A stretch of 38,100 bases of DNA from Gemmatimonadales bacterium (lineage in GTDB: Bacteria > Gemmatimonadota > Gemmatimonadetes > Gemmatimonadales > GWC2-71-9). The translations under genes and the position numbers were made by a program. Location: positions 1-38,100 of the forward strand of contig JAICUF010000013.1 in NCBI GenBank assembly GCA_025935995.1. The letters run 5' to 3'. Positions 1 to 19,902 of the stretch are shown here, one piece after another; position 1 is the stretch's first letter; each line of letters begins with the position of its first letter. Under the pieces are notes generated by a model that was not told where the DNA came from, did no database searches, and saw only the letters and a program-made list of their open reading frames with translations.

Positions 1-1332
1 ATGGTCAAGAGCGCGCAGGACATCATCGGGACCCGGACGGCGGCCAAGGCGATCGAGGAGATCTTCAACGTCATCCACCCGGCGCCGACCAAGACCGCGC
101 TCAAGGACATCTTCACCGCCGAGTCGGCGTCGCAGTTCCTCGACCGGGTGGCCAACTTCTCGGCGCTGCTCTCCGAGGATGACACCTACGCCCAGGCGCT
201 CAAGAAGCTCGACGACGCGATCGCGAAGGCCGAAAAGACCCGCGACGAGGTGCTGGCCCAGCTCTACGAGAAGATCCGGCCGCTGGAGCGGAGCTACCGC
301 CAGCTCCATCTCTTCTTCGAGAACGCCGACGTGCGCGACGGCGTGCAGCGGCCGCCGGTCGAGTTCTTCATCTTCAACGCCGACACCAAGGCGATCACGA
401 AGGACGCCGACAGCTCCACGATCGTCGCCCTCGACGAGTTCATCCAGAGCCGGAACGACAGCTTCAACTTCCGGCAGTTCATCTGCAACCTCGTCGTGCC
501 GGGCTACGTCCCCGACAACGTGCGCAAGCGGCTCGAGGACATCGCCAACCAGTGGGGCATGCTGCTGATCGGCGACCTCAAGGACGAGCAGAGCTTCCGC
601 TCCCTGAGCGACCAGTTCCGCACCGACGGCGGCGCGTACGAGTTCCTCAAGCGTCCCGAGGACAAGGCCGCGGCCGACGTCGTCGTGGCGGGCTACGTGA
701 AGCTCCGCGACAAGCACTGGTTCGAGAAGGCCGACGGCGACGCCGACGACGCCGACCTCTTCGCGCCGGCGTCGATGCTCTTCGCCGGCTCGCTCGCGCG
801 CACCGACCGCTCGACCGGCGGCGGCATCGCGCAGGGGCCGGTGGGGATGATCTTCGGCAAGATCCGCGGGGTCGAGAAGTCGCGCATCGAGCCGCGCATC
901 TCGCAGATGGAGCATCTGTCGATGGAGCGGCAGATCGTCACCATCATCCGGAACGAGGACAACGATCTCTGCTTCGTGGGCAGCCGCTCGCAGGCGGAGG
1001 ACCCGAAGGGCGTGCTCAAGTTCTTCACCTCGTACCGCGTGCTCCGCTACCTCGAGCGCCGGATCGCCGTCTACCTGCGCCGCGTGGCGGAGCAGCGCCT
1101 CACGCGCGATCTCGTGAAGGAGCAGGTGCGGAACCCGATCGAGGACTTCCTCGAGGACGAGAAGAAGAAGGGCACCATCTACAACTACACCCTCGACATC
1201 GACATGGACGAGGACAAGTTCGCTCAGGGGGTGCTCGACATCGGCCTCGAGGTGCTGCCGGTGGGACCGGCGGAGACGTTCAACCTGAAGATCGATACCC
1301 CGAAGTTCAACAGCGCCAAGGAAGCGAAGTGA
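1..1332 (+). CDS. tssC: T6SS contractile sheath large subunit TssC (VipB-like)
   Basis: This is the large subunit of the T6SS sheath, which polymerises with TssB around the Hcp tube in the cytoplasm and contracts to fire it. At 443 residues it is shorter than proteobacterial TssC (about 490) and closer to the Bacteroidetes-type (DUF5458) form. Visible features are an early helical segment with I-R-P-L-E-R-S-Y-R-Q-L-H-L-F-F around residues 93-107, matching the LEGSWRGL-like segment of TssC, and a C-terminal sheath core with F-T-S-Y-R-V-L-R-Y-L-E-R-R near residues 342-354. The assignment rests on these features plus the Hcp, VgrG, TssK and ClpV genes that follow. The reading frame opens at the first base of the window, so the true start and any upstream TssB cannot be checked. 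A phage or eCIS tail sheath is the alternative, but TssK and ClpV argue for T6SS. Confidence 0.8.
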   Translation: MVKSAQDIIGTRTAAKAIEEIFNVIHPAPTKTALKDIFTAESASQFLDRVANFSALLSEDDTYAQALKKLDDAIAKAEKTRDEVLAQLYEKIRPLERSYRQLHLFFENADVRDGVQRPPVEFFIFNADTKAITKDADSSTIVALDEFIQSRNDSFNFRQFICNLVVPGYVPDNVRKRLEDIANQWGMLLIGDLKDEQSFRSLSDQFRTDGGAYEFLKRPEDKAAADVVVAGYVKLRDKHWFEKADGDADDADLFAPASMLFAGSLARTDRSTGGGIAQGPVGMIFGKIRGVEKSRIEPRISQMEHLSMERQIVTIIRNEDNDLCFVGSRSQAEDPKGVLKFFTSYRVLRYLERRIAVYLRRVAEQRLTRDLVKEQVRNPIEDFLEDEKKKGTIYNYTLDIDMDEDKFAQGVLDIGLEVLPVGPAETFNLKIDTPKFNSAKEAK

Positions 1333-1682: not shown

Positions 1683-2162
1683 ATGGCAGGCGCCACGTAC
1701 AAGCGGGTGATGCTGGAGATCGACGGGGTCAAGTTCTTCCCGGTCGAAGCGAAATACACGCTCAACCGGCAGGCCAACAACGTGGGGCGAAGGGTCGGCG
1801 AGTCGCTCGTGGGCCGGGCGTACGCGTGGGTGGACGCCGCGCAGATCGACAACATCAGCCAGAACAACCAGGTCGAGCTCTGGAAGATGGCCACCGAGAG
1901 CAAGGACCCGCTCCACAAGGTGTCGATCACCTACTACCTCGACGACAGCGACAAGGTGCTGAGCAACATCGAGTTCATGGGGTGGATCTCGGTCTTCCAG
2001 TACACCAACCCCAAGATCTCCAACGTGCCCGGGACCGGCGGCACCATCGGCACCGCCGACGCCGCGGCGACCGGCACGCTCAGCTTCGCGAACCTGCTCT
2101 ACCTCGAGCTGGCCGTGGTCCTCGACGAGGCGAACGTCACGAAGCACAAGTTCACCAAGTAG
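1683..2162 (+). CDS. hcp: T6SS tube protein Hcp (TssD)
   Basis: Hcp forms stacked hexameric rings that make the T6SS inner tube and are exported with VgrG. The 159-residue length fits the family. The sequence has the expected beta-rich pattern: a first strand Y-K-R-V-M-L-E-I-D-G-V, a mid-protein amphipathic segment and later strands such as H-K-V-S-I-T-Y-Y-L. There is a Gly/Thr/Ala-rich insertion near residues 115-135 (P-G-T-G-G-T-I-G-T). The ATG is preceded by a strong Shine-Dalgarno, GAGGGAGG, about six bases upstream, consistent with high expression. This is the strongest ribosome-binding site in the T6SS operon. The gene lies between the small proline-rich gene and tssE. Confidence 0.85.
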   Translation: MAGATYKRVMLEIDGVKFFPVEAKYTLNRQANNVGRRVGESLVGRAYAWVDAAQIDNISQNNQVELWKMATESKDPLHKVSITYYLDDSDKVLSNIEFMGWISVFQYTNPKISNVPGTGGTIGTADAAATGTLSFANLLYLELAVVLDEANVTKHKFTK

Positions 2163-2165
2163 GCG

Positions 2166-2531
2166 ATGCCGCCCGTCCGCACCATCGGCTTGCCGCTCCG
2201 GGTCACGCCCGACGGGCAGCTCGAGCGATCCGAGGGTGCGACGGCGGTGCTGCGGCTCATCCAGGCCATGGTGGCCACCACCGCCGGCAGCTGGCCCCAC
2301 GCGCGGTGGTTCGGACTGCACGAGCGATTCCTCGCGATCAACGCCGACGTCGAGGATCAGGCCGGGCTGGCGGATGCCATGAACGACGCGCTCACCCGGC
2401 TCGGCGTCGACTGGGCCCGGGTGCGCCAGGTGCGGAGCGTCCGCGGCCCGGCCTTCGGAGAGCGCCGCTTCGACGTCGTCCTCGCCGTGGGCGACGAGGG
2501 CCAGCCCGTCTCCGCCTCCATCACTCCCTGA
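2166..2531 (+). CDS. tssE: T6SS baseplate wedge TssE (gp25-like)
   Basis: This 121-residue protein belongs to the GPW/gp25 baseplate family. It would sit at the sheath-baseplate junction and start sheath polymerisation. It shows the N-terminal L-P-L-R-V-T-P-D-G start, an A-V-L-R-L-I-Q-A-M helix and a later helix-rich half ending in strands (R-F-D-V-V-L-A-V). The gene starts three bases after the hcp stop with no obvious Shine-Dalgarno, suggesting translational coupling. Identification rests mainly on size, fold pattern and position before vgrG. It is the least certain of the core T6SS assignments. Confidence 0.65.
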   Translation: MPPVRTIGLPLRVTPDGQLERSEGATAVLRLIQAMVATTAGSWPHARWFGLHERFLAINADVEDQAGLADAMNDALTRLGVDWARVRQVRSVRGPAFGERRFDVVLAVGDEGQPVSASITP

Positions 2532-2562: not shown

Positions 2563-4485
2563 ATGGGCGTTCTGATCACGGCGAGCCTGGGCGGCGGCCG
2601 GCTGACCCTGCAGAATCGCGAGATCGAGCACCTCGAGATCACTTCGAAGCTCGGCGAGCCGCACCGCTGCCTCCTGCGCTTCGACCTCGACACCAATCAC
2701 CCGGAAAACCTGCAGGACTTCCACGGTCAGCTCGCCGTCGAGATCGCCGATGACAGCATCCTGGGCGGCGCGAAGGCGGTGCTCTTCGAGGGGCTCATGA
2801 CGGGCGGGACCCAGGACCACCAGCTCGCGGGCGGCGGCTCCCGCTTCGAGGTCCGCGCCGCCAGCCCGCTGCTGCTGGCGATGGAGCGCCATCAGTCGGC
2901 GACGGTCCGCTCGACGACCTGGGACGAGGCCGCCTCGCTGCTCCATCTGTCGGTCATCGGGCCGAAGCGCTTCCAGGTCCCGTCTCTCGGGTACCGCATG
3001 TTCGGCGAATCGCGGCTCGAGTTCATCCGCCGCCTGGCGGACGACGCTGGCTATTTCGTCGTCGAGCGGGACGGCGTGGTGCAGCTGCGGTCGGAATTCG
3101 ACGATGCCGCGCGCCAGCCACTGACGTGGGGCCGCGAACTCCTTGCGTTGCGGGCGCGGAGCGAGCTCGCCAATCACACCTGGCGGGGCGGCGTGTACGA
3201 ACAGCGCGTCAAGGCCGATTTCCGCTTCCGCATGCAGCGGAAGGAGCCGGTGGTGACCGGCGCCCTCAAGCTGACCGAGGCGGTGCGGCAGGCCGCGCCG
3301 ACCTATGCCGACCAGACGGAGCCGAATCTGCTCATGTCCACCTCGCGGGCGCCGTTCCGCGACGTGTTCAGGGACGCGCTGCAGCGGGAGAGTGAGCGGA
3401 CCCTGGGCGCGTCCGTCGTCGTCGAGGGCGAGTCGCGGGACTTCCGCCTCCGTCTCGGATCCACGGTGCAGCTCAACGATGCGCCGGGCTTCCCCCTGCC
3501 GGGATCGACCGGCGTGTTCGGCCTGGTCGAGCTGGTGCACGTGTGGGACGCGAGTGAATACCGCAATCGGTTCACCGGCAGCCCGTGGAAGAATTTCAGC
3601 AACGCCGCGCGGCCGCCGCTGCGACCTGCACCCGGTCCGTTCCTCGCGGAAGTGCTGCCGACCGAGCCCGGCATCCTGGCGGAGGGCGCAGTCAAGGTCC
3701 GGATGGCGCACATGGACGTGGACGACGAAAATCACTTCCTCTACGCCAGGCTGGTCACCCCGTTCGCGGGCAACCAGCGCGGGATCATCTTCGTTCCGGA
3801 GCCCGGCGACGAGGTGCTGGTATTCTTCGACCAGGGGGATCCCGAACACCCGGTCTGCCTCGGCAGTCTCTGGAACGGCAAGGACCAGTGCCCCGGAATC
3901 GAGCCCAAGCAGATCGTCACCAAGAGCGGCAACGTCCTGGCGTTCCATGACGACGGCTGGATCGAGCTGTACACGCCGGAGGGGAAGTGCATGCTGCAGC
4001 TCTCCGACAAGGACGGGAAGACCCGCGTGACCCTCCACTCCGAAGGCGACCTCCTCCTCGAGGCCCGGGGCCAGATCCAGCTGCGTGCCGCCTCCCTCCA
4101 CGAGGCGATCGGCGGCGGAGTGATGCGCGACATCGGGGGCGACGAGACGGTGAAGGTCGGCGGGCAGATGAACCATTCGTCGAGCGGGATGATGACGCAT
4201 GAATCCGAGGCGGGCGCGTCGTACGAGGGCTGCGGCTCGGTGCTGGAGCTGATGCCGGGACAGGGTCGTCTCACCGCGGCGACCAGCATCGTCGAGGGTG
4301 ACGTCATGGCGGTGGTGTCGGGCGCCTCGGTGCAGCTCAACCCGCCGGTCGTGCCGCCCAAGATTCCCGTGATTCCCGTGCCCAAGCACCTCCCCGGCCA
4401 GCTGGGCAGCTCGTGGGGGAAACGGGCGGTGCCGGAGCCCACCGCCCGCTTCGAGAGCGACCAGGACCCGCCCCCCGACGCCTGA
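2563..4485 (+). CDS. vgrG: T6SS spike protein VgrG (TssI)
   Basis: This 640-residue protein is the T6SS spike, a trimer that caps the Hcp tube and carries effectors. Residues 1 to about 340 form the gp27-like base, with F-I-R-R-L-A-D-D-A-G-Y-F near residues 160-171. Residues about 370-445 are a gp5 OB-fold, including V-K-V-R-M-A, G-I-I-F-V-P-E-P-G-D-E-V and P-V-C-L-G-S-L-W-N-G. A beta-helical needle of short repeated segments follows. The last 50 residues are proline-rich and basic/acidic (P-P-K-I-P-V-I-P-V-P-K) and are too short for an evolved effector domain. No PAAR gene or clear effector/immunity pair follows. A GAGGAG Shine-Dalgarno lies nine bases before the ATG. Confidence 0.9.
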   Translation: MGVLITASLGGGRLTLQNREIEHLEITSKLGEPHRCLLRFDLDTNHPENLQDFHGQLAVEIADDSILGGAKAVLFEGLMTGGTQDHQLAGGGSRFEVRAASPLLLAMERHQSATVRSTTWDEAASLLHLSVIGPKRFQVPSLGYRMFGESRLEFIRRLADDAGYFVVERDGVVQLRSEFDDAARQPLTWGRELLALRARSELANHTWRGGVYEQRVKADFRFRMQRKEPVVTGALKLTEAVRQAAPTYADQTEPNLLMSTSRAPFRDVFRDALQRESERTLGASVVVEGESRDFRLRLGSTVQLNDAPGFPLPGSTGVFGLVELVHVWDASEYRNRFTGSPWKNFSNAARPPLRPAPGPFLAEVLPTEPGILAEGAVKVRMAHMDVDDENHFLYARLVTPFAGNQRGIIFVPEPGDEVLVFFDQGDPEHPVCLGSLWNGKDQCPGIEPKQIVTKSGNVLAFHDDGWIELYTPEGKCMLQLSDKDGKTRVTLHSEGDLLLEARGQIQLRAASLHEAIGGGVMRDIGGDETVKVGGQMNHSSSGMMTHESEAGASYEGCGSVLELMPGQGRLTAATSIVEGDVMAVVSGASVQLNPPVVPPKIPVIPVPKHLPGQLGSSWGKRAVPEPTARFESDQDPPPDA

Positions 4486-4486
4486 C

Positions 4487-6199
4487 ATGGCCAGCACGCC
4501 GTCGGTCCTGGGCTCCGCCGCGCGCGATGCGGGCGAGATCGCCGCCGAGCTCCGGCGGGAGTTCGACGTGGCCCTGCAGCAGCGCTACGGCACGCAGGCC
4601 CAGGCCGATCCCGTCCTCGCGACCCTCTTTCACGCCTTTGCCACGCAGATCGGCCGGCTCTACCAGGAGGCGGAATACGCCTTCCCCCTCGGCGTGCTCG
4701 ACGATCTGCTCGCCGGCCTCGGCATGCCGGCCCGGCTCGCGCAGCCCGCGCAGACGGTGGTTGCGCTCACCGGCATCACCCGCCGCGAGCGGCTCGCGCT
4801 CGACACGGAGTTCATCGGGACCGCTCGCTCCGGCGAGCGCTTCGCCTTCGTCCCCGACGATTCCATCGAGCTCGCTCCGACCGAGCTCCGCTTCGCCGCC
4901 ATCTACGAGAGCGGGCGCCTCACGACCATTTCGGGGGCGCGCCCGGTCAAGGGCGGCGCCTTCACCATGCCCTCCACGGCCGCGCTTGCCCTGGGTGCCG
5001 CGCCACCCGCCCTCTGGATCGCGCTCGATGCCGACGCGCCACACCTCGGCGGCCTCGGCATGATGCTCGACACGCTGCCGCTGGGTGGCCCGGTGGCGCG
5101 CTCGCTCGAGCTGAGCCCGTGGCACCTGCTCGACGCCGCCGGCGCCGTGACGGAAGCAGGCACACTGCGCGCCCGGCGCGGCCGGGGCGGGGTCCGGCGG
5201 CTGCAGTGGCTCGATGACATGTCGGCGTCTGACACCGACGATCCGATGGCGCGGGTGGTGAATCTCGCGGCCGGCCCCTACGGCGAGCAGGTGTTCATCT
5301 TTCCGCCCGTGCCGGAGGACCGGCGCTGGCGCGGCACCCTGCCGCGCGTCCTCGCTCCCGCCATCCCGGCTCTGCTGCCCCCCGACCAGGCCCGGGGACT
5401 CGCCCAGCCGCTCGCATGGCTGCACGTTCCGCTCGCACCGGGGACGCCGGCGGTGGCGAGCTCGGTGCAGCGGATCGCGCTGAACGCCGTCACGGCGTCG
5501 AACATGGAGGTCGTGGCCGAGCAGGTGCCGTTCGACCGTATGGGAACGGTGGTGACCCTCGAACCCGAGGGTCGCAAGGGACGGTTCCTGATGGGCGTCC
5601 TCAGCGTCACCGGCGAGCGGGGCTCCGCGTATGCCGCCGACAGCGCACTCGATGCCCCGCTCGGCGCGGGCCGCTGGCGCTACCGCGAGCGGCGGCTCGA
5701 TCTCCGCCCGGCGCAGGATCCCGCCGGCCGCCTCGACACCTACGCCATGGTCCGGCTCCTCTACTGCGACGGCGAGAGCGCCAACGGGATCGATCCGGGC
5801 GGGGTCCGCCAGCTCGGCTCGCCGCTCGGGAACGTGACCGCCAAGGTTTCGAATCTGGTGCCGAGCCGCGCGGGCGCCGCGCCACCCGAGTATCCGCCCG
5901 CGCGGCTGCGCTTCGCCGAGCTGGTGCGCACCCGCGAGCGCGTGGTGACGGCGGCCGATGCCGAGATCGCCGTGCGCGCCTTCGAGCCGCGGGTTGCGGC
6001 CGTGGCGGTGACGCCGGTGACGTCGGTCGAGGGCGGTCGCGCGCGGCAGGGTCAGCACGTCGCGGTGTCGGTCCGGCCGGCGGATTTCGCGGATCCGGAA
6101 GCGGAGCTGCCGCGACTCGGCGCCCAGCTCGAGCGGCACCTCCGGGAGCGCGCCGTCCTGGGGTTCAACCTGAGCGTGAGCGTCACCGCCGATGGCTGA
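4487..6199 (+). CDS. tssF: T6SS baseplate protein TssF (VasA-like)
   Basis: TssF forms the baseplate wedge with TssG and TssE and links it to TssK. The 570-residue length and position match the family. Early residues show the helical pattern L-R-R-E-F-D-V-A-L and a run of hydrophobic helices, with D-L-L-A-G-L-G-M-P near residues 73-81. The centre contains R-V-V-N-L-A-A-G-P-Y-G-E. The C-terminal domain resembles gpJ-like wedge proteins, and the end F-N-L-S-V-S-V corresponds to the last beta strands. The start is one base after the vgrG stop and the end overlaps tssG by eight bases. Divergence from proteobacterial TssF is high, so the call leans partly on gene order. Confidence 0.75.
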   Translation: MASTPSVLGSAARDAGEIAAELRREFDVALQQRYGTQAQADPVLATLFHAFATQIGRLYQEAEYAFPLGVLDDLLAGLGMPARLAQPAQTVVALTGITRRERLALDTEFIGTARSGERFAFVPDDSIELAPTELRFAAIYESGRLTTISGARPVKGGAFTMPSTAALALGAAPPALWIALDADAPHLGGLGMMLDTLPLGGPVARSLELSPWHLLDAAGAVTEAGTLRARRGRGGVRRLQWLDDMSASDTDDPMARVVNLAAGPYGEQVFIFPPVPEDRRWRGTLPRVLAPAIPALLPPDQARGLAQPLAWLHVPLAPGTPAVASSVQRIALNAVTASNMEVVAEQVPFDRMGTVVTLEPEGRKGRFLMGVLSVTGERGSAYAADSALDAPLGAGRWRYRERRLDLRPAQDPAGRLDTYAMVRLLYCDGESANGIDPGGVRQLGSPLGNVTAKVSNLVPSRAGAAPPEYPPARLRFAELVRTRERVVTAADAEIAVRAFEPRVAAVAVTPVTSVEGGRARQGQHVAVSVRPADFADPEAELPRLGAQLERHLRERAVLGFNLSVSVTADG

Positions 6200-7109
6200 C
6201 ACGCCCGTCATCATGCCCGATCTGGCCGGTGTGCGCCGGACCGCGCGGCACCGCGTCGACTCGGCCCTGCTCACGCTGCTGCGCCTCGGCGTGGATTTCG
6301 GCCGCATCGTGCTGGAGGCCGCCGGTCCGGGCGAATCCGCCGGCGCGGTCGTCGCCCAGGATCCGCCGCCGGGCACCGCACTGACACCGGTGTCGCGGAT
6401 CGCGCTTCGGGTCGGCGGCAGCGGCGGCCTCGACCTGATGCCGTTCCCCCTCCGGGACGAGAGCGACACCGAGTTCCGCGTCGACCGGCTCTTCGCCATC
6501 TTCGACAACCCGGCCCTCAAGCTCGGCTTCTTCCTGCGGCAGGGCGGGGCCTATCTCGCGCTGCACCCCGATGAGCCGCTTACGGCCCGTCGCTGGCTCG
6601 AGGATCTCTTCTCGGTGTCGGCGGAGCCCTGGCCGGCGGAGCGGTGGCACCCGCTGGCCCGCCTCATTCCGCGGCTGCACGCGCTGGGCGGCACCGCGGC
6701 GGCGGTCCGGGTCGCCATGCGCGCGATGTTCGATCTGCCGGTGGCGCAGGTGCGCGTCCGCCGTCGAATGGTGCCGGTCGCGGCGCCGGCCGTGATGCGC
6801 CTGGGCACGCGGAACGGGCGGCTCGGTTACGACGCGATGCTCGGCGGCGGGATCGTCGGCGACGCGCACCTGGAGATCACCTACGGCCCGCTCTCGCTTC
6901 CCGAGTGGCGTCGGCACGGGACGCCGGCGGCCGCGCGCGAGCGCGAGGCGCTCTTTCCCTACATCCTTCCCGCCCAGCTGTCGGCCGTGACCGAACGGTG
7001 GCAGGTGGGCGACGCGGCGGCCGGCACGCGGCTCGACGCCGCCGCGAGCCCCGCGCTGCTGGGCGTCAATGCGTATCTGGGTGCGATTCCCGTCAGGAGA
7101 GCTGCGTGA
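6192..7109 (+). CDS. tssG: PASTA-domain fusion of T6SS baseplate protein TssG
   Basis: This protein has 305 residues and two parts. Residues about 7-75 form a PASTA domain: M-P-D-L-A-G-V at the start, then G-A-V-V-A-Q-D-P-P-P-G-T-A-L and a closing strand R-I-A-L-R-V-G-G. Residues about 80-305 are TssG-like, with P-F-P-L-R-D-E, a central R-L-H-A-L-G-G-T, and a C-terminal R-L-G-T-R-N-G-R-L-G followed by Y-G-P-L-S-L. PASTA domains usually bind peptidoglycan or beta-lactams outside the cell in Ser/Thr kinases and penicillin-binding proteins, whereas TssG is cytoplasmic. The fusion is therefore unexpected. The remaining TssG part is shorter than usual (about 225 versus about 330 residues). The gene overlaps tssF by eight bases and tssK by four. 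Confidence 0.75.
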   Translation: MADTPVIMPDLAGVRRTARHRVDSALLTLLRLGVDFGRIVLEAAGPGESAGAVVAQDPPPGTALTPVSRIALRVGGSGGLDLMPFPLRDESDTEFRVDRLFAIFDNPALKLGFFLRQGGAYLALHPDEPLTARRWLEDLFSVSAEPWPAERWHPLARLIPRLHALGGTAAAVRVAMRAMFDLPVAQVRVRRRMVPVAAPAVMRLGTRNGRLGYDAMLGGGIVGDAHLEITYGPLSLPEWRRHGTPAAAREREALFPYILPAQLSAVTERWQVGDAAAGTRLDAAASPALLGVNAYLGAIPVRRAA

Positions 7110-8713
7110 CGAGCGACGAAAGCGGAATGCGGTCGGTCAACTGGATCTCGGGCATGCTGCTCACCCCCGACCACTTCAGCGCACAGGACCGCTACATCGA
7201 GGGAGCGTTCGGCTGGCTCCTGCGGCACGCGGTCCCGGCGACGGGGCTGCTCGGCGGCGGCGTCCGGCTCGAGGCGGCCGAACGCGGGCTCGCGGCCTAC
7301 GATCCGCGGCTCGAGGTGAGCGATGACGGCCGGCTCGTCACCGTGACGGTGCTGCAGGCGCGGGGCATCACCGCCGGCGGCGAGCCGGTGGACGTCGCGT
7401 CCGGCACGGCCGTGCGCGGCGAGACGCCCAAGGCGGAGCTCGCCGGCGCGCGTGAGGTCTACGTGTATCTGCTCCGCACCGGTGAGCGGGAAGAGGATCC
7501 TGCGTCCGTCGGCGCCGATCCCGCCAACCCGGTGATGGCCGCCTTTCGCCGCCCGAAGTACGAAGTGCGGTTCGGCGTGCCGGCCGACCAGCTCGAGCAT
7601 GCGCTCGTCGTCGGGCGCCTCCGCCGCGCGAGCGAATCGCTCGGGTTCGAGCGGGACAGCCAGTTCATCCCGGCGTGCGCCACCATGATGGCGCACAGCG
7701 AGCTGTTCGCCGGCTGGTCGCGGCTCCAGTCGGACCTCAACTACCTCACCGGGCAATTCGCCGAGCTGCACCGTGCCGTCGCACGCTATGCCGAGCAGGT
7801 CGGACGGCGCGGCGTCGACAGCCGGGGCGACCTCGATGTGCTCGCCTTCACCGAGCGAGCCGTGCTCGCGCTGGACGCGTGCGCGGCCGAGACGGCCGAT
7901 CCGGCGATCGCGCCCGCCCGGTTCTTCGACCAGATCGACCGCCTCGGCCGCCGCGTGGCGCTGGCGCTCGACCTGAGCAGCGCGACCCAGGCCTACTTCC
8001 AGACCCTCACCGGCGCGGACGCGGGATACGGCGATCTGCTCGAGGAGGAGCGCGGCGTGCTCGCGGCCCGGCGCGACGCCGGCGCCCGCGACGACCTTCG
8101 GCTCGCGCTCAGCCGCGCCGGCGACACGCTCCAGCGGATTCGCCGACTGGTCGAGGCGCTCGAGGGCAAGTACGTGGACTATCGCGTCAACCGCTCGGTG
8201 GACGCCGTCCGTTTCCTCCTCGATCGCCAGGGGGAGCAGTTCTACGTGGCGGTGGCGACGCCCGGTCACCCGCAGCGCGAGGGCGACCTGCTCACCTTCG
8301 TCTTCAGCCAGCTCGCGCTGGCGGGCCGCCACGAGTACCGGCTCGTCCTGCTGGGCGATCCGCAGGGCACCTCCGGCTGGCAGGTCGGCGACGAGCTGAA
8401 CGTCGACCTCCGGGTGAACAGCGAGGCCGGACCCGGCCGGCCGATCTCGCGCGCGGTGCCCTGCGAGATCCCCGGCCAGCGCAACTTCGGCGTCAACTTC
8501 GAGACCCCGCCCGATGTCGCCACCATCGCGGGGCTGAGCGTGCAGGTGCAGCCGGCGCATCGGGTGCGCGGCGCCGTGCTTTTCCAGCGGAAGCTCGGGC
8601 TCGTGGCGGAGGCGCCGACACCACCGTCGCCGTCCCCGGCGCCCCGTCCGGCGGAGGCTCACCCGACGCCGGCGGCGATGCCCAAGATCACCATCCGCAA
8701 GCCAACCGCCTGA
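7106..8713 (+). CDS. tssK: T6SS baseplate connector TssK
   Basis: TssK trimers connect the baseplate wedges to the membrane complex. Starting at a GTG that overlaps the tssG stop (GTGA) gives 535 residues. A GGAGA Shine-Dalgarno lies about five bases upstream. The hallmark N-terminal motif [12 protein letters not shown], typical of TssK, is at residues 13-24. The middle has long helices ([21 protein letters not shown]). The end is a Pro/Ala/Thr-rich linker followed by P-K-I-T-I-R-K. It is longer than the typical 445 residues, mainly through an expanded N-terminal region and this tail. TssK's C-terminal domain normally contacts TssL/TssM, so the tail could be adapted to a different membrane partner. 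Confidence 0.85.
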
Positions 8714-8738: not shown

Positions 8739-11444
8739 ATGGACCTGAACCGGCTCTCGATGGACCTCACCGCGGCGCTCGAGGAGTCCCGGCGCGCGGC
8801 CTCCCGCAGTGGCGCGGCCTACATCCGGCCGCGGCACCTGATGAGCGTGATGCTCGAGCCGGCCGGAGCGCTCGGACGGCTCGCGGGATCGCTCGGACTC
8901 GATGCCGCGATGGCCCGGCGCTTCGTCGACGGGGTCACCGACACCGATAACGAAGGGAAGCTGGTGCCGGGCCAGCAGCCGATCGCGAGCCGCGCGCTCC
9001 GCGATCTCCTCGACCGCGCCACCGCGCTGGTGGACCGCCGCGGTGCTCGCACGATCTCGCCGATCGATGTCGCGCTCGCGGCGGTGGAATCGCCGGGGCT
9101 GCCGGTGGGACGGGCGCTGATCGATGCCGGCTGGTCGCCGGAGCGGCTGGGGACGGCGGCGGAGAGCCCGGTCGTGAACCAGCCGGCGGAGGAGACCGCG
9201 GCCCCGGCGCCCGAGGGGCAGGGCAGCCAGCTCGAGCGCTTCTGTCGCGACCTCACGCAGGCCGCGCGCGAAGGCAAGCTCTCGCCCGTGATCGGACGGG
9301 ACGCCGAGCTCCGGAGCGTCCTGCAGACGCTACTCCGGAAGTCGAAGAACAATCCCGTCCTCGTGGGCGATCCGGGCACCGGCAAGACCGCGGTCGTGGA
9401 GGCGCTCGCGCAGCGGATCGCCGCCGGCGACGTCCCCGAGTCGCTCCGGAACGCGCGGGTGCTGGCCCTCGATCTTACCGGCCTCGTGGCCGGCGCCAAG
9501 TATCGGGGCGAGTTCGAGGAGCGGATCAAGGCCGTGGTGGACGAGGTGCGCGCGGCGGACGACGTCATCCTCTTCCTCGACGAGCTGCATACGCTGGTCG
9601 GCGCGGGCGGAAGCGCCGGCGGCATGGACGCCGCCAACATCCTCAAGCCGCCGCTCGCCCGCGGCGAGCTTCGCTGCGTCGGCGCCACCACGCACGACGA
9701 GTACCGCGAGTACATCGAGAAGGACGGCGCCCTCGCGCGGCGCTTCGAGAAGGTGATCGTGGACGAGCCGGACGACGAGACGGTGCTGATGATGCTCCGC
9801 GGGGTGAAGCCGCGCTTCGAGACGCATCACGGCGTCCGCATCGTCGAGGACGCCCTGCAGGCGACGGTGAAGCTCGCGCGGCGCCACCTGCGCGACCGCT
9901 TCTTCCCCGACAAGGCCTTCGACGTGCTCGACGAGGCCGCCGCGCGGCTTCGGATGCAGCACGAGTCGAAGCCCGACGCGATCGACTCGCTCGAGCGCGA
10001 GCTCATCCGCCTCGAGGGCCGGCGCCAGGCGCTCGAGGCCGCGGGCCGGAAGGCCGACGATCTAGCCGCCACGGCGAAGGAGATCGGCGCGAAGCAGGCG
10101 GAGCTCGACCGGCTCATGGCGCGGTGGACGGCGGAGAAGGACGTCTCGGAGGGGCTGCAGCAAACCCGCGCGGCCCTCGCGGCGAAGACCGCCGAGCTCG
10201 CCGCCGCCGAGGCCGCGGGCGACGTGGCGCGGGTAGCGGGGCTCCGGCATGTGGAGATCGAGGGACTCACACGGGAGGAGGCACAGCTCGTTGCGCGGCT
10301 CGAGAAGCTCAAGGCCGACGGGCTCATGGTGCCGCAGGAAGTCGGGCCGTCGGACATCGCCGACGTGGTCGCGCGTCGCGCCCGCGTGCCCGTCGCCCGC
10401 ATGATGGAGACCGAGCGCGACCGCCTCCTCAAGCTGGAGGAGCGGCTGGCCGAGCGCGTGATCGGGCAGGGCGAGGCGGTGGATACGCTGGCGGAAGCCG
10501 CGCGCCGGATGCGGGCCGATCTCCGGAAGAAGCGGAAGCCGGCGTCGTTCCTCTTCGTCGGCCCCACCGGCGTCGGCAAGACGGAGCTGGCCAAGGCGCT
10601 GGCCGGTGCCCTCTTCGACGACGAGGCCGCGCTCATCCGCATCGACATGGCGGAGTACAAGGACGCGGGTTCGGTGTCGGGGCTGATCGGCTCGCGTCCC
10701 GGACTGGTGGGATCCGAGCAGGGCGGCTTCCTCACCGAGCAGGTCCGGCGGAACCCCAACTCGGTCGTGCTCTTCGACGAGATCGAAAAGGCGCACCCCG
10801 AGGTGATCGACATCCTCCTCGGCGTGCTCGACGAGGGCCGGCTCACCGACGCGAAGGGCCGGTTCACCGACTTCACCAACACGATCATCCTGCTGACCTC
10901 GAATCTCGGCGTGAAGGAGGCGGTGGCGGCGACGGACGACCTCGAGGCGCGGCGCGAGATCATCCTCAAGGTGGTGCAGGCGACGCTGCGGCCCGAGCTC
11001 TTCAACCGCCTGAGCGGCGTCATCCCCTTCAACTCGCTCGCGGTGGACACGCTCCGGACGATCGTGCGGATTCACCTGCGCGGCATCTCGGCGCAGATCG
11101 CCGAGCAGCACCAGGCCTCGCTCGAGGCGGACGACGCGGCCGTCGCACTCCTCGCCGAGCGGGCGTACGATCCCGCCTACGGCGCGCGGCCGGTCGAGCG
11201 CACCATCGACCGGATGGTGCTCTCCGATCTCTCGCGGCTCATCATCGGAGGGACGGTCCAGCCCGGGAATCTCGTCCTGCTCACGCTCGACGGCGAGGAG
11301 GTCGCGATTCTGGTGGGCGAGCCCGCCGAGGTCCGGGAGGAAGCAGCTCGGATGCGGGAGGCCCGGGCAGCGGCGTCCGCCGCCGCGGCGACGCCGGGTA
11401 CGGCGCCGACCTCCGACGCCCCCGCGGTCGGAGCCCCTGCATGA
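8739..11444 (+). CDS. clpV: T6SS AAA+ disassembly ATPase ClpV (TssH)
   Basis: ClpV unfolds contracted sheath so that TssB/TssC can be recycled. This 901-residue Hsp100 protein has a Clp N-domain (about residues 1-145), a Pro/Glu/Ala linker and a first AAA+ module with Walker A G-D-P-G-T-G-K-T at 210-217 and Walker [10 protein letters not shown] coiled-coil middle region (about 410-520) follows, then a second AAA+ module with Walker A G-P-T-G-V-G-K-T at about 608-615 and Walker B V-L-F-D-E-I-E-K, and a C-terminal D2-small domain. The last 30 residues are an Ala/Pro/Thr-rich tail. Chaperone ClpB is the close paralogue, but location directly after tssK makes the T6SS form far more likely. The stop overlaps the next ATG by four bases. 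Confidence 0.9.
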
Positions 11445-12385
11445 GAGGTGGCGCGCTGCTGCTGGTCCTCGCGCTATCGCGCGCCGCGGCGGCGCAGGAT
11501 ACGACCGCCGCGCCGGCGCCGGCCGGTGCGCAGGGCGCGGCGGCCCAGCGGGATGTGGAGAGGAACAAGGTGGTGCAGTTCTGCCAGCAGGTGGACATCA
11601 CGGCGCCGCCCACCATCGAAGGCGCGCGTGACCGCACCGACTGCTGGAAGCGTCTCCAGCTTCAGGGGATGGGTGACGCGCTGGTGGATGCGAAGTACCA
11701 GGCCGCCGTCGCCGACTTCGATCAGGCCACGCAGAAGGACTCCACGCGCCGGGCCAGCGATTCGAGCGCCGCGGCGATCAACAATCGCATGCTCGTCGCC
11801 CAGCGGGCCATCCAGGCGCGCAACCTCGACGACGCCGAGAGCGCGGTGAACGACGTGCTCTCGATCCAGCCCGACAACCAGCGCGCCCTCGTGCTGAGCG
11901 ACCGGATCACGGCGCTCAAGCGCGCGCGCCAGCTCAAGATCACCCTCTTCGCCGTCGGCGCCGCCGTGCTCGCGCTCGGTGCGGGGCTCGGCATCGTCGC
12001 GAAGAAGCTGGGGAAGAAGCACACCGAGAAGGCGGCGCAGGAGAAGGTCGCCGCCGCCGAGCGGAAGGCGATGCTCAAGATCGTGGACGGGGTGGGCCGC
12101 GGGAAGGTCTACACCATCGAGGCGCCGCTCTTCCGGATCGGCGCCGCCAGCTCCGACAAGGCCGAGGAGAAGAACGACCTCGTGCTGAGCGATTCAGCCG
12201 CGGCGATCTCGCGCTATCACTGCTCGATCATCCGTCGCGACGGGCGGTTCTTTCTCATCGATTCCAGCCTCAACGGCACCCGCCTCAACGACGCGCCGCT
12301 CGACCGGGGCGAGCACCACGCGCTGCGCGACGGCGACGAGCTCACGGTCGCGGGAGTGAGCCGGCTCAAGTTCCTCGAGATGTAG
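11441..12385 (+). CDS. Signal peptide-periplasmic-TM-FHA protein, T6SS-associated
   Basis: This protein has 314 residues. A signal peptide (residues 1-19, ending A-A-A-A-Q) is followed by a helical, TPR-like periplasmic region. Two cysteines (C48 and C68) could form a disulfide. A single membrane span lies at about 166-188, then a Lys/Glu/Ala coiled stretch, then an FHA domain at about 211-312. The FHA phosphothreonine-binding residues are visible as S-R-Y-H (257-260) and N-G-T (279-281). The topology puts FHA in the cytoplasm and the N-terminal part in the periplasm. FHA proteins recruit phosphorylated partners in Pseudomonas T6SS (Fha1/PpkA), but no kinase gene lies in this window. Its ATGA overlap with clpV ties it to the operon. 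A structural anchor or phospho-switch is inferred, not shown. Confidence 0.8.
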
Positions 12386-13558
12386 CCCGACGGTCCAGCG
12401 GTCGCGCCGGTTGGCGAAGCGGTCGATGTGGAGGTGAAGCCCGGTGCCCGCCCGGTCGAGCAACCCCGCCCGCGTCGCCGCCGCGATCTGCCGCCGGAGG
12501 ATCGTGTCCTGCGAGAAATCCTTCACCCGGATGCCGCGCGAGCGGCACTCCGCTACGACGAATGCCACCTCCTCCGGTGTCATCGTCCGGCTCCTGAGGT
12601 CGAGCGCTCCGCCCGCCCCATAGAGCGAGAGGTGCTCCGCGTGGTCCCGCCCCGTCACCTCGATCCCCGACCCGAACCGCTGCTCGAATCCCGCCGACAC
12701 CTCGGCAAAGGCCGCCGCGAACTGCTCGGGCGTGAGCGACGCCTGCCGGAGCCGGTCGGGCGCCAGGGTGGCCCGCGCCGAGGCGTAGGCCGGCGGAACG
12801 GTGAGCCGCCGGTTCCGGTAGATCGCCGCAACCGAGGCCTCCAGCGCCTCGATGCGCGGCTTGATCGCCGGATGATCGCGGTAGCGGCTCAGGGCGAGCG
12901 TGTTGACCCCCCGGGCAAACTCGCCGGCGGCCACGTCCGCGAGCCCGAGCTCGAGCAGCGTGTTGCCCCGCTCGACGTGGTCGTACGCGGCCACCATGAG
13001 GCTGTCCACCTCCCTCCCCTGCTCGTCGGTCAGCACGCCACCCGTCCGATCGGCCCGGAAGAGGCCGAAGCCGATCGCGGCGATGGCGCCGGCGACCAGC
13101 AGGACGGCCAGCGAGGCGACGATGATGAGCGCCACGGGCCGGCGCCGGCGCGGCCCCGGGAGTCGCGAGGCGCGCTTCCGCCGCCGGGGCGCAGGCGGCG
13201 CCGGAGCTGCGGGTGGCGTTTCCGCCGCCTCGCCGCTCCCGAAGCGATAGCGGTAGCCCGGCGCCACCTCGATCACGTCCCCGTCGGCCAGGCGCTCGGT
13301 GTGCGCGAGCGGCACGCCGTTGAGCGACGCGGCCCCGCGCCCGGGCGTGAGCCACCACCCGTCTTCCCGCTCGGTGAGGGCCACGTGCCGCTCGGCCACG
13401 CCGGGCAGGAAGAGCTGCAGCGTCGCGTCGGGCGCGCTGCCGATCCACGCGGGCGAGCGGTCGAGCGCGATGGGCACGCCGCGCGTCGGCGCGACGGGAA
13501 TGAGCGAGGGCGTCGGCATCGTGGCCTTGTCGGCTGGGCTGCATGAACTATCCTCCAT
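12194..13558 (-). CDS. FHA-TM-periplasmic D-Ala-D-Ala peptidase-like (M15) protein
   Basis: This is 454 residues from an ATG with AAAGGAGG three bases upstream. The ATG at 13519 (M-P-T-P-S) is an alternative start. A cytoplasmic FHA-like domain (about 28-106, with R-H-V-A-L and S-L-N-G-V) is followed by a Pro/Arg-rich linker, a membrane span (about 142-166), and a helical periplasmic part. The last recognisable part is Hedgehog/M15 peptidase-like: E-H-L-S-L-Y-G-A-G-G-A-L-D (308-320), then G-T-G-L-H-L-H-I-D (371-379), resembling the Zn-ligand HxxGxAxD and H-x-H motifs. The spacing of the first His to Asp is longer than in the standard motif, so catalytic status is uncertain. Residues about 390-454 overlap antisense to the plus-strand FHA gene. 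It is divergent from the hydroxyproline operon. Confidence 0.7.
   Translation of the reverse strand: MEDSSCSPADKATMPTPSLIPVAPTRGVPIALDRSPAWIGSAPDATLQLFLPGVAERHVALTEREDGWWLTPGRGAASLNGVPLAHTERLADGDVIEVAPGYRYRFGSGEAAETPPAAPAPPAPRRRKRASRLPGPRRRRPVALIIVASLAVLLVAGAIAAIGFGLFRADRTGGVLTDEQGREVDSLMVAAYDHVERGNTLLELGLADVAAGEFARGVNTLALSRYRDHPAIKPRIEALEASVAAIYRNRRLTVPPAYASARATLAPDRLRQASLTPEQFAAAFAEVSAGFEQRFGSGIEVTGRDHAEHLSLYGAGGALDLRSRTMTPEEVAFVVAECRSRGIRVKDFSQDTILRRQIAAATRAGLLDRAGTGLHLHIDRFANRRDRWTVGLHLEELEPAHSRDRELVAVAQRVVLAPVERRVVEAGAVEAGIDEKEPPVATDDRAVIARDRRG
13527..13554 (+). promoter_or_regulatory. Putative sigma-70-type promoter for hydroxyproline operon
   Basis: TTGTCG at 13527-13532 is followed by a 16-base spacer and TATCCT at 13549-13554. 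The predicted transcription start is near 13561, about 25 bases before the M24 peptidase ATG. The -10 form resembles the CTATCTT of the tRNA-His promoter. It lies within the coding start of the divergent FHA-M15 gene, so transcription in the two directions could interfere. Confidence 0.4.
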
Positions 13559-13585
13559 GAACCTCCTTTCCGCGAGTCCCTCAGC

Positions 13586-14878
13586 ATGACCGAGATGAAC
13601 CGCCGCCGGTTCGGCGGCTGGCTGGCCGCCGCCGTCGGCGCGGGCGCACTGGCCCCCGGCCGGCTCTTCGCCGCCAGCCCTCCCGGCGATCCCGATCCGT
13701 GCGATCTGCCCGCCCACCTCCGCGGGCTCAAGCCGATGACGGAGGGCGTCGCGCCGATCTCACCGGCCGAGCGCCTCGCGCGGCTGGAGCAGGCGCGACG
13801 CCTCATGCGGGAGAGCGGCATCGCCGCGGTCGTGCTGGAGCCGGGCTCGTCGCTCTACTACTTCACCGGCGTGCGCTGGGGACAGTCGGAGCGGACCTTT
13901 GCCGCCGTCGTGCCCGCGACGGGAGATCTCGCCTGGGTCTGCCCCGCCTTCGAGGAGGCGCGTGCGCGCGAGCTGATTCCGGCGGGCGGGGAGGTGCGCG
14001 TCTGGCAGGAGGACGAGAGCCCCTTCCGCCTGATCGCCGGCATCCTCAAGGACCGCGGTGTCGCGACCGGCAAGGTCGGGATCGAGGAGAACCTGCGGTT
14101 CTTCATCCTCGACAACCTCCGGCGCGAGGCGCCCGCGCTCGAATACGTGAGCGCCGACCCGGTCACCGCCGGCTGCCGCATGATCAAGTCGCCGGCCGAG
14201 CTGGCGCTGATGCAGCGGGCGGCGGACATCACCATCGCCGCCTTCCGTGCCACCTTCCCGATCCTGCACGAGGGCATGACGCAGTACGACGTGAGCGGCC
14301 AGATGAGCGCCGCGCTCACCCACCTCGGCGGCCAGGAGCCGTGGGTGCTGGTGGGGCTCGGCGAGTATTCGGCCTTCCCGCACGGCAGCATCAAGCCGCA
14401 GCGGCTGCGCCAGGGCGACGTCGTGCTCATCGACGCGGGCTGCAGCTTCCAGGCGTATCAGGCCGACATCACGCGCACCAGCGTCCTGGGGAAGCCCACC
14501 GCGCGGCAGACCCGGATATGGAACCTCGAACGGAAGGCGCAGGACGCCGCCTTCGCCGCCGCGCGGCCGGGCGCCACCTGCGAGTCGGTGGATGCGGCGG
14601 CACGGAAGGTCATCGCCGACGCGGGATTCGGCCCGGGCTACAAGGTGCCGGGCCTCCCGCACCGGACCGGACACGGCATCGGGCTGGACGGCCACGAATG
14701 GACCTACCTGGTCCGCGGCAACCAGACGAAGCTCCGCCCGGGGATGTGCTTCAGCGACGAGCCCACGATCGTGATCTACGGCGAGTTCGGCATTCGCCTC
14801 GAGGACTGCATGTACATCACCGACGACGGCGCCCGCTTCTTCTCGCGGCAGAGCGAGTCGATCACCCGGCCGGTCTGA
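13586..14878 (+). CDS. Tat-exported M24 family Xaa-Pro peptidase
   Basis: This 430-residue M24 (pita-bread) metallopeptidase cleaves peptides with Pro or Hyp, typically X-Pro dipeptides. The first residues carry a Tat-like signal, N-R-R-R-F-G-G (5-11), then a hydrophobic segment ending near residue 30. The five metal ligands are present: D283 (L-I-D-A-G), D294 (Q-A-D-I-T-R), H363 (R-T-G-H-G-I-G), E392 (S-D-E-P-T) and E406 (R-L-E-D). The N-terminal creatinase-like domain spans about 60-200. It heads an operon for hydroxyproline breakdown, so release of Hyp from exported or imported collagen-type peptides is the likely role. The start codon has no clear Shine-Dalgarno. ATG at 13595 is an alternative. 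A specific substrate cannot be read from sequence. Confidence 0.85.
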   Translation: MTEMNRRRFGGWLAAAVGAGALAPGRLFAASPPGDPDPCDLPAHLRGLKPMTEGVAPISPAERLARLEQARRLMRESGIAAVVLEPGSSLYYFTGVRWGQSERTFAAVVPATGDLAWVCPAFEEARARELIPAGGEVRVWQEDESPFRLIAGILKDRGVATGKVGIEENLRFFILDNLRREAPALEYVSADPVTAGCRMIKSPAELALMQRAADITIAAFRATFPILHEGMTQYDVSGQMSAALTHLGGQEPWVLVGLGEYSAFPHGSIKPQRLRQGDVVLIDAGCSFQAYQADITRTSVLGKPTARQTRIWNLERKAQDAAFAAARPGATCESVDAAARKVIADAGFGPGYKVPGLPHRTGHGIGLDGHEWTYLVRGNQTKLRPGMCFSDEPTIVIYGEFGIRLEDCMYITDDGARFFSRQSESITRPV

Positions 14879-18397: not shown

Positions 18398-18638
18398 GCT
18401 CGTCGAGTTTACCGTGGACGGCGTCACCTGTCGGGCGGCCCCCGGCACCTCGCTCGCGGCCGCCATGCTCGATGCGGGGGTGACCGCGTTCCGCCGTTCC
18501 CGTACCGGCGAGCCGCGCGGCCCCGTGTGCGGCATGGGGATCTGCTTCGAGTGCCGAGTGGCGATCGACGGCATCGCGCATCGCCGCGCATGCCTCGAGC
18601 CGGTGCGCGCGGGGATGACGGTTCGGACCGGTGAGTGA
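18390..18638 (+). CDS. D-hydroxyproline dehydrogenase small [2Fe-2S] subunit
   Basis: This 82-residue ferredoxin-like protein corresponds to the gamma subunit of the heteromeric D-hydroxyproline dehydrogenase (the HcnA/SoxD-like small subunit family). Its cysteines lie in C-G-M-G-I-C-F-E-C (residues about 47-55) and in R-R-A-C, the usual arrangement of a plant-type [2Fe-2S] cluster, with another Cys near the N-terminus. It overlaps the FAD subunit by eight bases and the alpha subunit by eight. A function outside this complex is unlikely. Confidence 0.88.
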   Translation: MPELVEFTVDGVTCRAAPGTSLAAAMLDAGVTAFRRSRTGEPRGPVCGMGICFECRVAIDGIAHRRACLEPVRAGMTVRTGE

Positions 18639-19902
18639 CGCGTCCGTCCTCGAGACCGACGTCGCGATCGTCGGAGCCGGTCCTGCCGGAATCGCCGCCG
18701 CGGTGGCCGCCCGCGCCGAGGGCGCGCGGACGCTGCTCCTCGATTCGGCGCCGAGGCCCGGAGGACAGATCTGGCGACACCGCGATCCGGCTCAGCTTCC
18801 CGCGTCCGGCCGCCGGTGGATCGAGCGGCTGTCAGGATCCGGCGCGGAGTGGATTCACTCCGCCAATGCGATCGATCTCCCCGCGCCCGGCGTCCTCATC
18901 GCCGAGCGCGAGGGGAGAGCATTCACCATCCGCTGGCGCTCACTCGTCATCGCGACCGGCGCCACGGAGCGCCTCCTCCCGTTTCCCGGATGGACCCTTC
19001 CGAATGTGTTCGGCGTCGGCGGCCTGCAGGCGCTGCTCAAGGCCGGCGCGAGCGTGGCGGCCAGGCGCGTGATCGTGGCCGGGTCGGGGCCGCTCCTCCT
19101 GCCGGTGGCGTCGTCGCTCGCGGCTGCCGGCGCCACGATCCGGCTCGTGGCGGAGCAGGCGCCGGCGCTCCGCGTGTACCGCTTCGCGGGCGCGCTCTGG
19201 TCCGACCCCGTACGGCTGGCACAGGCGGCCCGATACCGGGCCGGATTCCGTCGGGCGCGCTATCGCTGCGGCACCTGGATCGTCCGGGTCGATCCGGTCG
19301 GAAGCGCGCTGAGCGTCACGCTCACCGATGGCCGCCGCATCTGGACCGACCGGACGGATCTCGTGGCGGTCGGCTATGGGCTGGTGCCGGACGTACGTCT
19401 GGCGCGGCTCGCCGGGTGCAGCATCGCCTCCGGGTGCGTGGCCGTCGACCGGTCGCAGCGCACCAGCGTCCCCAGCGTCTTCTGCGCCGGCGAGCCGACC
19501 GGCATCGCCGGCGCGGACTCGGCCGTAGCGCAGGGACGCCTGGCCGGTGCGGCCGCCGCCGGTGCCCGCCGCACGGGCGGGGCCGCGTCGCGCGCCAGGC
19601 GTTTCGCGGCCCGGCTCGATCGGGCCTTCGCGCTCCGTCCCGACTTGCGCGCCCTTCCCGATCCCGCCACCATCGTCTGTCGCTGCGAGGACGTGTCGCT
19701 GGGCGAGATAGGTGAAGGGTGGAGCGCGCGGCAGATCAAGCTCTACACGCGCGCCGGCATGGGGCCCTGCCAGGGCCGCGTCTGTCAGCCGGCCCTCGAA
19801 TTCCTGCGTCGAACCGGCGCCGATGCCGTGCGCCTGCCGCTCTTTCCAGCTCCAGTCGGCCTGCTGGCCGACCACGCCAACCGGGACGAGGGAGACTCGT
19901 GA
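18631..19902 (+). CDS. D-hydroxyproline dehydrogenase, NAD/FAD-binding alpha subunit
   Basis: This 423-residue pyridine-nucleotide-disulfide oxidoreductase family protein starts at a GTG inside the preceding gene's end. The N-terminal dinucleotide-binding motif is V-A-I-V-G-A-G-P-A-G (11-20). A second Rossmann motif is V-A-G-S-G-P near the centre. The C-terminus has a BFD-like [2Fe-2S] domain with C350, C352, C380 and C385 (V-C-R-C and P-C-Q-G-R-V-C). This architecture matches the alpha subunit of opine/D-hydroxyproline dehydrogenases, where it relays electrons from the substrate-oxidising subunit. Final electron acceptor is not evident from sequence. Confidence 0.87.
   Translation: MSDASVLETDVAIVGAGPAGIAAAVAARAEGARTLLLDSAPRPGGQIWRHRDPAQLPASGRRWIERLSGSGAEWIHSANAIDLPAPGVLIAEREGRAFTIRWRSLVIATGATERLLPFPGWTLPNVFGVGGLQALLKAGASVAARRVIVAGSGPLLLPVASSLAAAGATIRLVAEQAPALRVYRFAGALWSDPVRLAQAARYRAGFRRARYRCGTWIVRVDPVGSALSVTLTDGRRIWTDRTDLVAVGYGLVPDVRLARLAGCSIASGCVAVDRSQRTSVPSVFCAGEPTGIAGADSAVAQGRLAGAAAAGARRTGGAASRARRFAARLDRAFALRPDLRALPDPATIVCRCEDVSLGEIGEGWSARQIKLYTRAGMGPCQGRVCQPALEFLRRTGADAVRLPLFPAPVGLLADHANRDEGDS

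Follow-up and report, generated by a model that had tools for sequence, protein, structure and literature searches.

The PASTA-tssG gene and its T6SS locus

The analyzed stretch of DNA, referred to here as the window, has a length of 38,100 nucleotides and represents an entire contig (C75) of a Gemmatimonadota MAG. It carries a T6SS locus with the following genes:

1..1332, + strand: TssC large sheath subunit, start at the contig start (Pfam TssC, E 6e-21)
1683..2162, + strand: probable Hcp/TssD tube protein, 159 aa, assigned by position and sequence pattern, without library match
2166..2531, + strand: probable TssE / gp25-like sheath initiator, 121 aa, assigned by position and sequence pattern, without library match
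2563..4485, + strand: VgrG spike (Phage_base_V, E 1e-16; VgrG models)
4487..6199, + strand: putative TssF, assigned by position, size and synteny, without library match
6192..7109, + strand: PASTA-TssG fusion protein, 305 aa, ATG start; wedge subunit of the T6SS baseplate, N-terminal domain exchanged
7106..8713, + strand: TssK (TIGR03353, E 2e-11)
8739..11444, + strand: ClpV/TssH (TIGR03346, 899 bits; TIGR03345, 707 bits)
11448..12385, start approximate, + strand: TagH-like FHA protein with one TM segment (FHA E 3e-13 in ORF 10124-12385)
12194..13717, - strand: FHA/SctD-like protein with one TM segment (FHA E 1e-5; SctD E 3e-7; synteny, conserved in the island)

The order tssB, tssC, Hcp-like gene, TssE-like gene, vgrG, tssF, PASTA-tssG, tssK, clpV and FHA-TM gene is conserved, with the Hcp-like gene being retained in eight loci, and beyond the FHA-TM gene a Ser/Thr kinase (in several genomes) and a divergently oriented gene for an FHA/SctD-like TM protein are found. 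A homologue of the FHA-TM protein yielded a TagH match, and the FHA-TM protein is a candidate for a membrane-associated partner of the system. The TssC of the window also showed a weak match to the pyocin sheath (E 8e-4), and its T6SS ATPase scored clearly higher with ClpB models (899 bits) than with ClpV1 (707 bits). Further downstream (20806-22149, - strand) lies a T6SS-unrelated gene with a strong match to the erythromycin esterase family (PF05139, E 3e-134).

The last 123 bp of contig C36 (genome G000) agree with positions 1-123 of the window at all but one base. The two contigs therefore probably lie side by side with tssC extending across the join, and C36 probably carries the upstream neighborhood (locus L101). 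Near the T6SS island, this locus encodes a Ser/Thr kinase with an N-terminal zinc ribbon, a TM segment and Big_2 Ig-like domains (L101:1-2661, - strand); the kinases in the T6SS islands of four other genomes (G057, G028, G265 and G339) are without PASTA. L101 also contains a gene for a PAAR protein with a carboxypeptidase-regulatory-like and a C-terminal peptidoglycan-binding domain (L101:10255-11391), followed by one for an OmpA plus peptidoglycan-binding protein (L101:11381-12715), and this pair might possibly represent a spike tip or cargo.

Exchange of the TssG N-terminal domain for a PASTA domain

PASTA domains are normally known from cell-wall-sensing proteins, the family includes ligand-binding members, and the fold consists of a single helix that packs against a sheet of three strands. 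Their location is usually extracytoplasmic, although this is not strictly defining. The fusion ORF lies between tssF, with whose 3' end it shares 8 bp, and tssK. It opens with MADTPVIMPDLAGV and further on carries GAVVAQDPPPGT and RIALRVGG, with the domains of the protein arranged as follows:

6213..6419, + strand: PASTA domain, aa 8-76, from MPDL through the two later motifs given above (Pfam PF03793, HHalign, dN/dS)
6468..7085, + strand: TssG stem and C-terminal core, aa 93-298, corresponding to canonical TssG profile positions 94-305 (HHalign, Pfam PF06996)
6801..6845, + strand: TssG foot 1, LG repeats L204-G205, L211-G212 and L217-G218; TssK-binding loop by alignment
7032..7082, + strand: TssG foot 2, aa 281-297, with L281, L290-G291 and L296-G297; by alignment

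The first-pass annotation had read the first 75 or so residues as a PASTA domain, and profile comparisons bore this out. Both PASTA and TssG were matched by Pfam in all 16 full-length homologues (E<=0.1; best PASTA E 1.9e-6), and the alignment of aa 1-80 with 15 genuine Gemmatimonadota PASTA repeats by HHalign reached a probability of 95.8 (E 7e-9). For the window protein itself the Pfam PASTA match (aa 8-75, 22.9 bits, E 8e-5) was just below the cut-off of 23.2 bits, and it exceeded this value (26.1 bits) when the reading frames of the whole genome were searched; TssG was matched at aa 162-296 (29.1 bits, E 7.5e-7). In genome searches the fusion was one of few PASTA matches per genome, lying above the cut-off in 13 of 16 cases, and in six genomes with canonical TssG only, no PASTA match fell on TssG. 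A divergent TssG N-terminus that merely resembles PASTA was ruled out by HHalign controls, in which aa 1-80 showed no relation to the canonical TssG N-terminus (probability 0.2) and the canonical TssG N-terminus did not match PASTA (probability 0.2). AlphaFold models, built from a three-sequence alignment, were weak for both the full-length protein (pLDDT 37) and the PASTA part (mean pLDDT 55.6), so that the PASTA assignment rests on sequence profiles. The weak PASTA-only model had the element order of a PASTA domain (H16-31, E38-43, E52-55, E70-74), while comparison of the weak models with PDB folds (Foldseek, VIA) gave no significant match and no PASTA chain; CI2 and BTB entries in these lists were noise with Z values of at most 2.3.

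The same annotation had PASTA directly followed by TssG. The fusion as such was confirmed, but a complete TssG was not, as TssG is present only from about profile position 94. When the 16 fusions were aligned with 29 canonical TssG proteins, aa 93-298 paired with positions 94-305 (HHalign probability 95.4, E 1.9e-8), while the first 92 residues remained unaligned on either side. The canonical N-terminal domain (profile 1-93) is absent from the fusions (HHalign probability 0.2). In a separate TssG search, canonical TssG was found in more than 50 genomes and nearly all of these proteins spanned profile positions 1-5 to 303, whereas the profile match of PASTA-type TssG started only at about position 102. 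As judged by these alignments, the PASTA domain replaces the N-terminal domain of TssG and is not an addition to a complete TssG.

A full-length homologue was found in 16 of 395 Gemmatimonadota genomes including the window, the other 15 sharing 38-72% identity with it and belonging to genome families f1, f2 and f6. The TssC of the PASTA-type T6SS occurred in 19 of the 395 genomes; since the contigs of the three genomes without fusion end before tssG, the fusion is present in 16 of 16 testable genomes. The PASTA-type T6SS is patchily distributed among these soil bacteria, and some genomes lack it although others of their genus have it. Several matches were rejected, namely those of f7 genomes (L019, L021 and L024-L026), which were first taken as fusions and turned out to be ordinary three-repeat PASTA membrane proteins, those of f5 genomes (frames of 1014 aa), which were unrelated, and a weak TssG match in G188 without T6SS neighborhood; G056 likewise showed a weak TssG match. 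Beyond the phylum, searches of plasmids and viral contigs and a single scan of genome contigs, which reached close relatives only, retrieved just two Gemmatimonadota, and among the mostly open-access papers of a literature search none relevantly paired PASTA with TssG or a T6SS baseplate. Salmonella SPI-21 contains a separate PASTA ORF, which its authors list as not linked to the T6SS.

That two genes were artificially joined by a frameshift, a wrong start or misassembly has a negligible probability: nothing was found in favor of such an artefact, the same fusion occurs with uninterrupted frames in 16 genomes of three families, and the 8-bp overlap with tssF is of the operon type. The objection raised with the first-pass annotation, that related TssG genes might lack the segment or that a frameshift or misassembly might account for it, does not apply, as the relatives carry the PASTA segment.

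Conservation of the exchanged domain was evident from residues M8, P9, D10, R16, R19, A25, L29, G47, G51, Q56, P58, G61, R69 and L72, which are invariant in the 16 homologues, and from a tryptophan at position 48 in 12 of the 16. Mean identity was 0.51 in the PASTA segment and 0.41-0.46 in the TssG parts outside the feet, and dN/dS was about 0.05-0.15 for the PASTA part and equally low for the TssG part; at the sequence level, the PASTA domain is as conserved as the TssG core and under purifying selection. In a tree based on a short alignment, the TssG PASTA domains formed one clade (100/97) apart from the other PASTA repeats that these genomes encode. The TssG PASTA has one origin, a single such domain having replaced the N-terminal 92 or so residues of TssG once, in an ancestor shared by the lineage. 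Such a domain might do no more than improve solubility or act as a spacer, with no specific partner, which would suit a single domain of ordinary size. However, the invariant M8-P9-D10, R16, R19 and R69, the prevalent W48 and the low dN/dS make this unlikely.

Both TssK-binding feet are kept in the fusion. Foot 1 (LGTRNGRLGYDAMLG) and foot 2 (RLDAAASPALLGVNAYLG) obey the LG-repeat rule established for the TssK-binding loops of TssG (PMC8406304), and the TssK encoded by the next gene has an N-terminal pocket of W13, L19 and F24 within a 14-residue stretch, spaced as W8/L14/F19 in EAEC TssK and kept in the window and three relatives fitting the search pattern. Since both the feet and the pocket are retained, TssK most likely docks normally via the two feet.

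Cellular location and the membrane complex

Only a few residues separate the start codon from the PASTA domain, so that there is no room for a signal peptide, and hydropathy analysis showed no TM segment in the fusion protein. TssG was found experimentally to be a baseplate subunit that is soluble and cytoplasmic (PMC4604203). In the absence of a TM segment and with TssG residing in the cytoplasm, peptidoglycan should be out of reach, which makes recognition of the wall or of beta-lactams unlikely. These results speak against the cell-wall recognition module that had been considered for the baseplate. The family does include ligand binders, and Ser/Thr kinases and FHA proteins share the same islands, but binding of peptidoglycan or of a muropeptide- or beta-lactam-like ligand as a means of wall recognition or sensing appears very improbable for a domain that is predicted to have no access to peptidoglycan.

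The membrane complex of the PASTA-type T6SS appears to differ from that of canonical systems. In 13 draft genomes with only the PASTA-type T6SS, among them that of the window (G000), neither TssL (DotU, PF09850) nor TssM (IcmF, PF06761 and PF06744) was found above cut-off, with a single sub-threshold DotU match in G324 (14 bits), whereas of six Gemmatimonadota genomes with only a canonical T6SS, all contained DotU and five contained IcmF; E. coli and canonical Gemmatimonadota served as positive controls. As the genomes are drafts, the absence of TssL and TssM rests on 13 agreeing genomes. TssJ (PF12790) was matched in 0 of 22 genomes, canonical ones among them, and provides no contrast between the lineages, and an NCBIfam search of ten neighbor proteins gave no match to TssN, TssO, TssP, TssQ or TssR. 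Three genomes (G265, G286 and G369) carry both T6SS lineages.

Near the island a conserved multi-TM protein is encoded, which in several genomes is adjoined by a VWA protein with TM segments. The multi-TM protein (about 380 aa), upstream of tssB, is without Pfam or NCBIfam match and often lies beside the VWA-TM protein:

Upstream of tssB, multi-TM/VWA region: L106:17344-18489 and 18489-19769; L101:6861-7958; L110; L102; L112

Both proteins are candidates for an alternative membrane complex. Bacteroidota T6SSiii likewise has no TssJLM and relies on TssNQOPR, of which TssR contains a VWA domain (PMC10781749). The unusual membrane anchor suggested by the first-pass annotation is compatible with our data because TssL and TssM were undetectable in the 13 PASTA-type-only genomes.

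PASTA might then dock the baseplate to a replacement anchor, the TssG-TssM contact having been taken over with an FHA-TM, VWA-TM or multi-TM protein of the island. Besides the undetected TssL and TssM, the conserved TM proteins flanking the operon and the recruitment of TssG to the inner membrane by TssM in EAEC (PMC4604203) are in favor of such docking. In contrast, the N-terminal helices of EAEC TssG lie in the sheath-facing stem, and it is the head of TssK that attaches to the membrane complex (PMC6300606); in T6SSiii contact with the membrane complex was shown via TssK-TssN (PMC10781749). We regard this docking as the main rival of a PASTA function at the stem, and as possible though rather doubtful. 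The broader proposal of a new Gemmatimonadota T6SS lineage in which TssL and TssM were lost, conserved VWA, multi-TM and FHA proteins make up the anchor and the baseplate docks via the TssG PASTA domain is more tentative still.

Likely role of the PASTA domain and comparison with known systems

With peptidoglycan out of reach, a role in protein contact is the simplest reading, and reuse of the PASTA fold for this purpose, as suggested earlier, is compatible with the data. In EAEC, TssG residues 122-177 and two TssF N-termini form the stem, which touches TssC and for which a TssE contact is expected, while the TssG part before these residues was not resolved in the structure (PMC6300606). In the fusion, PASTA lies immediately ahead of these stem helices, which bundle with the two TssF N-termini and are turned towards TssE and the first TssC ring; clipping the stem would therefore be the likeliest job of the domain. 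We consider it about an even chance (probability around 0.5) that the exchanged PASTA domain mediates protein contacts inside the cell, at the TssF2-TssG stem, which is the likeliest of the roles considered. The domain would remain cytoplasmic and serve as a structural module clipping the wedge stem (TssF2-TssG) to TssE, TssC or Hcp, and might be held at the wedge bundle like the LysM-fold gp53-type protein in phage baseplates, while TssK would still dock through the two LG-repeat feet. In phage A-1(L) the wedge bundle encircles a LysM domain, and the LysM-fold wedge protein has been termed universally conserved in contractile phage baseplates (PMC10966104, PMC10811340). TssG of EAEC binds TssC, Hcp and TssE, but it also binds the cytoplasmic loop of TssM, so that its N-terminal part could just as well serve the membrane side (PMC4604203). 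The AlphaFold models, weak (pLDDT 37 and 56) and without PDB fold match, likewise limit the case for a clip at the stem.

With this exchange, a domain of a T6SS core component was swapped naturally, which makes the role of the TssG N-terminal region testable; of the solved wedge, this region is the part that is understood least. The fusion shares with canonical TssG (EAEC T6SSi; PF06996, PDB 6N38) the stem and C-terminal core, both LG-repeat feet, the tssF-tssG order and the TssK pocket, but differs from it in carrying PASTA in place of the first 92 or so residues; canonical Gemmatimonadota TssG proteins score about 270-360 bits compared to 29 for the fusion. With the PASTA domains of PBPs, PknB/StkP kinases and the Gemmatimonadota three-repeat membrane protein it has in common the sequence family with the G-x-V-x-x-Q-x-P-x-x-G pattern and, in a weak model, the predicted helix-strand-strand-strand order. 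In contrast to these, the TssG PASTA is single-copy, N-terminal, predicted to be cytoplasmic, fused to a baseplate protein and placed in a clade of its own.

The use of a wall-associated domain in the cytoplasm parallels LysM in phage baseplates. In the LysM-fold wedge protein (T4 gp53, pyocin PA0627, C-terminus of the Pvc/Afp hub) a fold known from peptidoglycan binding serves as a structural piece at the wedge bundle, and it also occurs fused to different baseplate proteins, as PASTA does here. However, the two fold families are unrelated, and we propose an analogy and not homology.

At the level of the whole system, the PASTA-type lineage represents a T6SS without detectable TssL and TssM outside Bacteroidota, which raises the question of its anchoring. 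Similar to Bacteroidota T6SSiii, it combines the lack of TssL and TssM with TssK, TssF, TssG, a ClpV-type ATPase and an island-associated VWA protein, but it belongs to another phylum, has PASTA in TssG and showed no TssN-TssR match among the neighbors searched. T6SSi, in contrast, has the TssL/TssM membrane complex that was undetected in the PASTA-type lineage. T6SSiv and eCIS lack TssJLM and have a Phage/Afp-type sheath. The TssC of the window fits Pfam TssC (E 6e-21) and only weakly the pyocin sheath (E 8e-4), and TssB, TssK and ClpV are present in the PASTA-type system.
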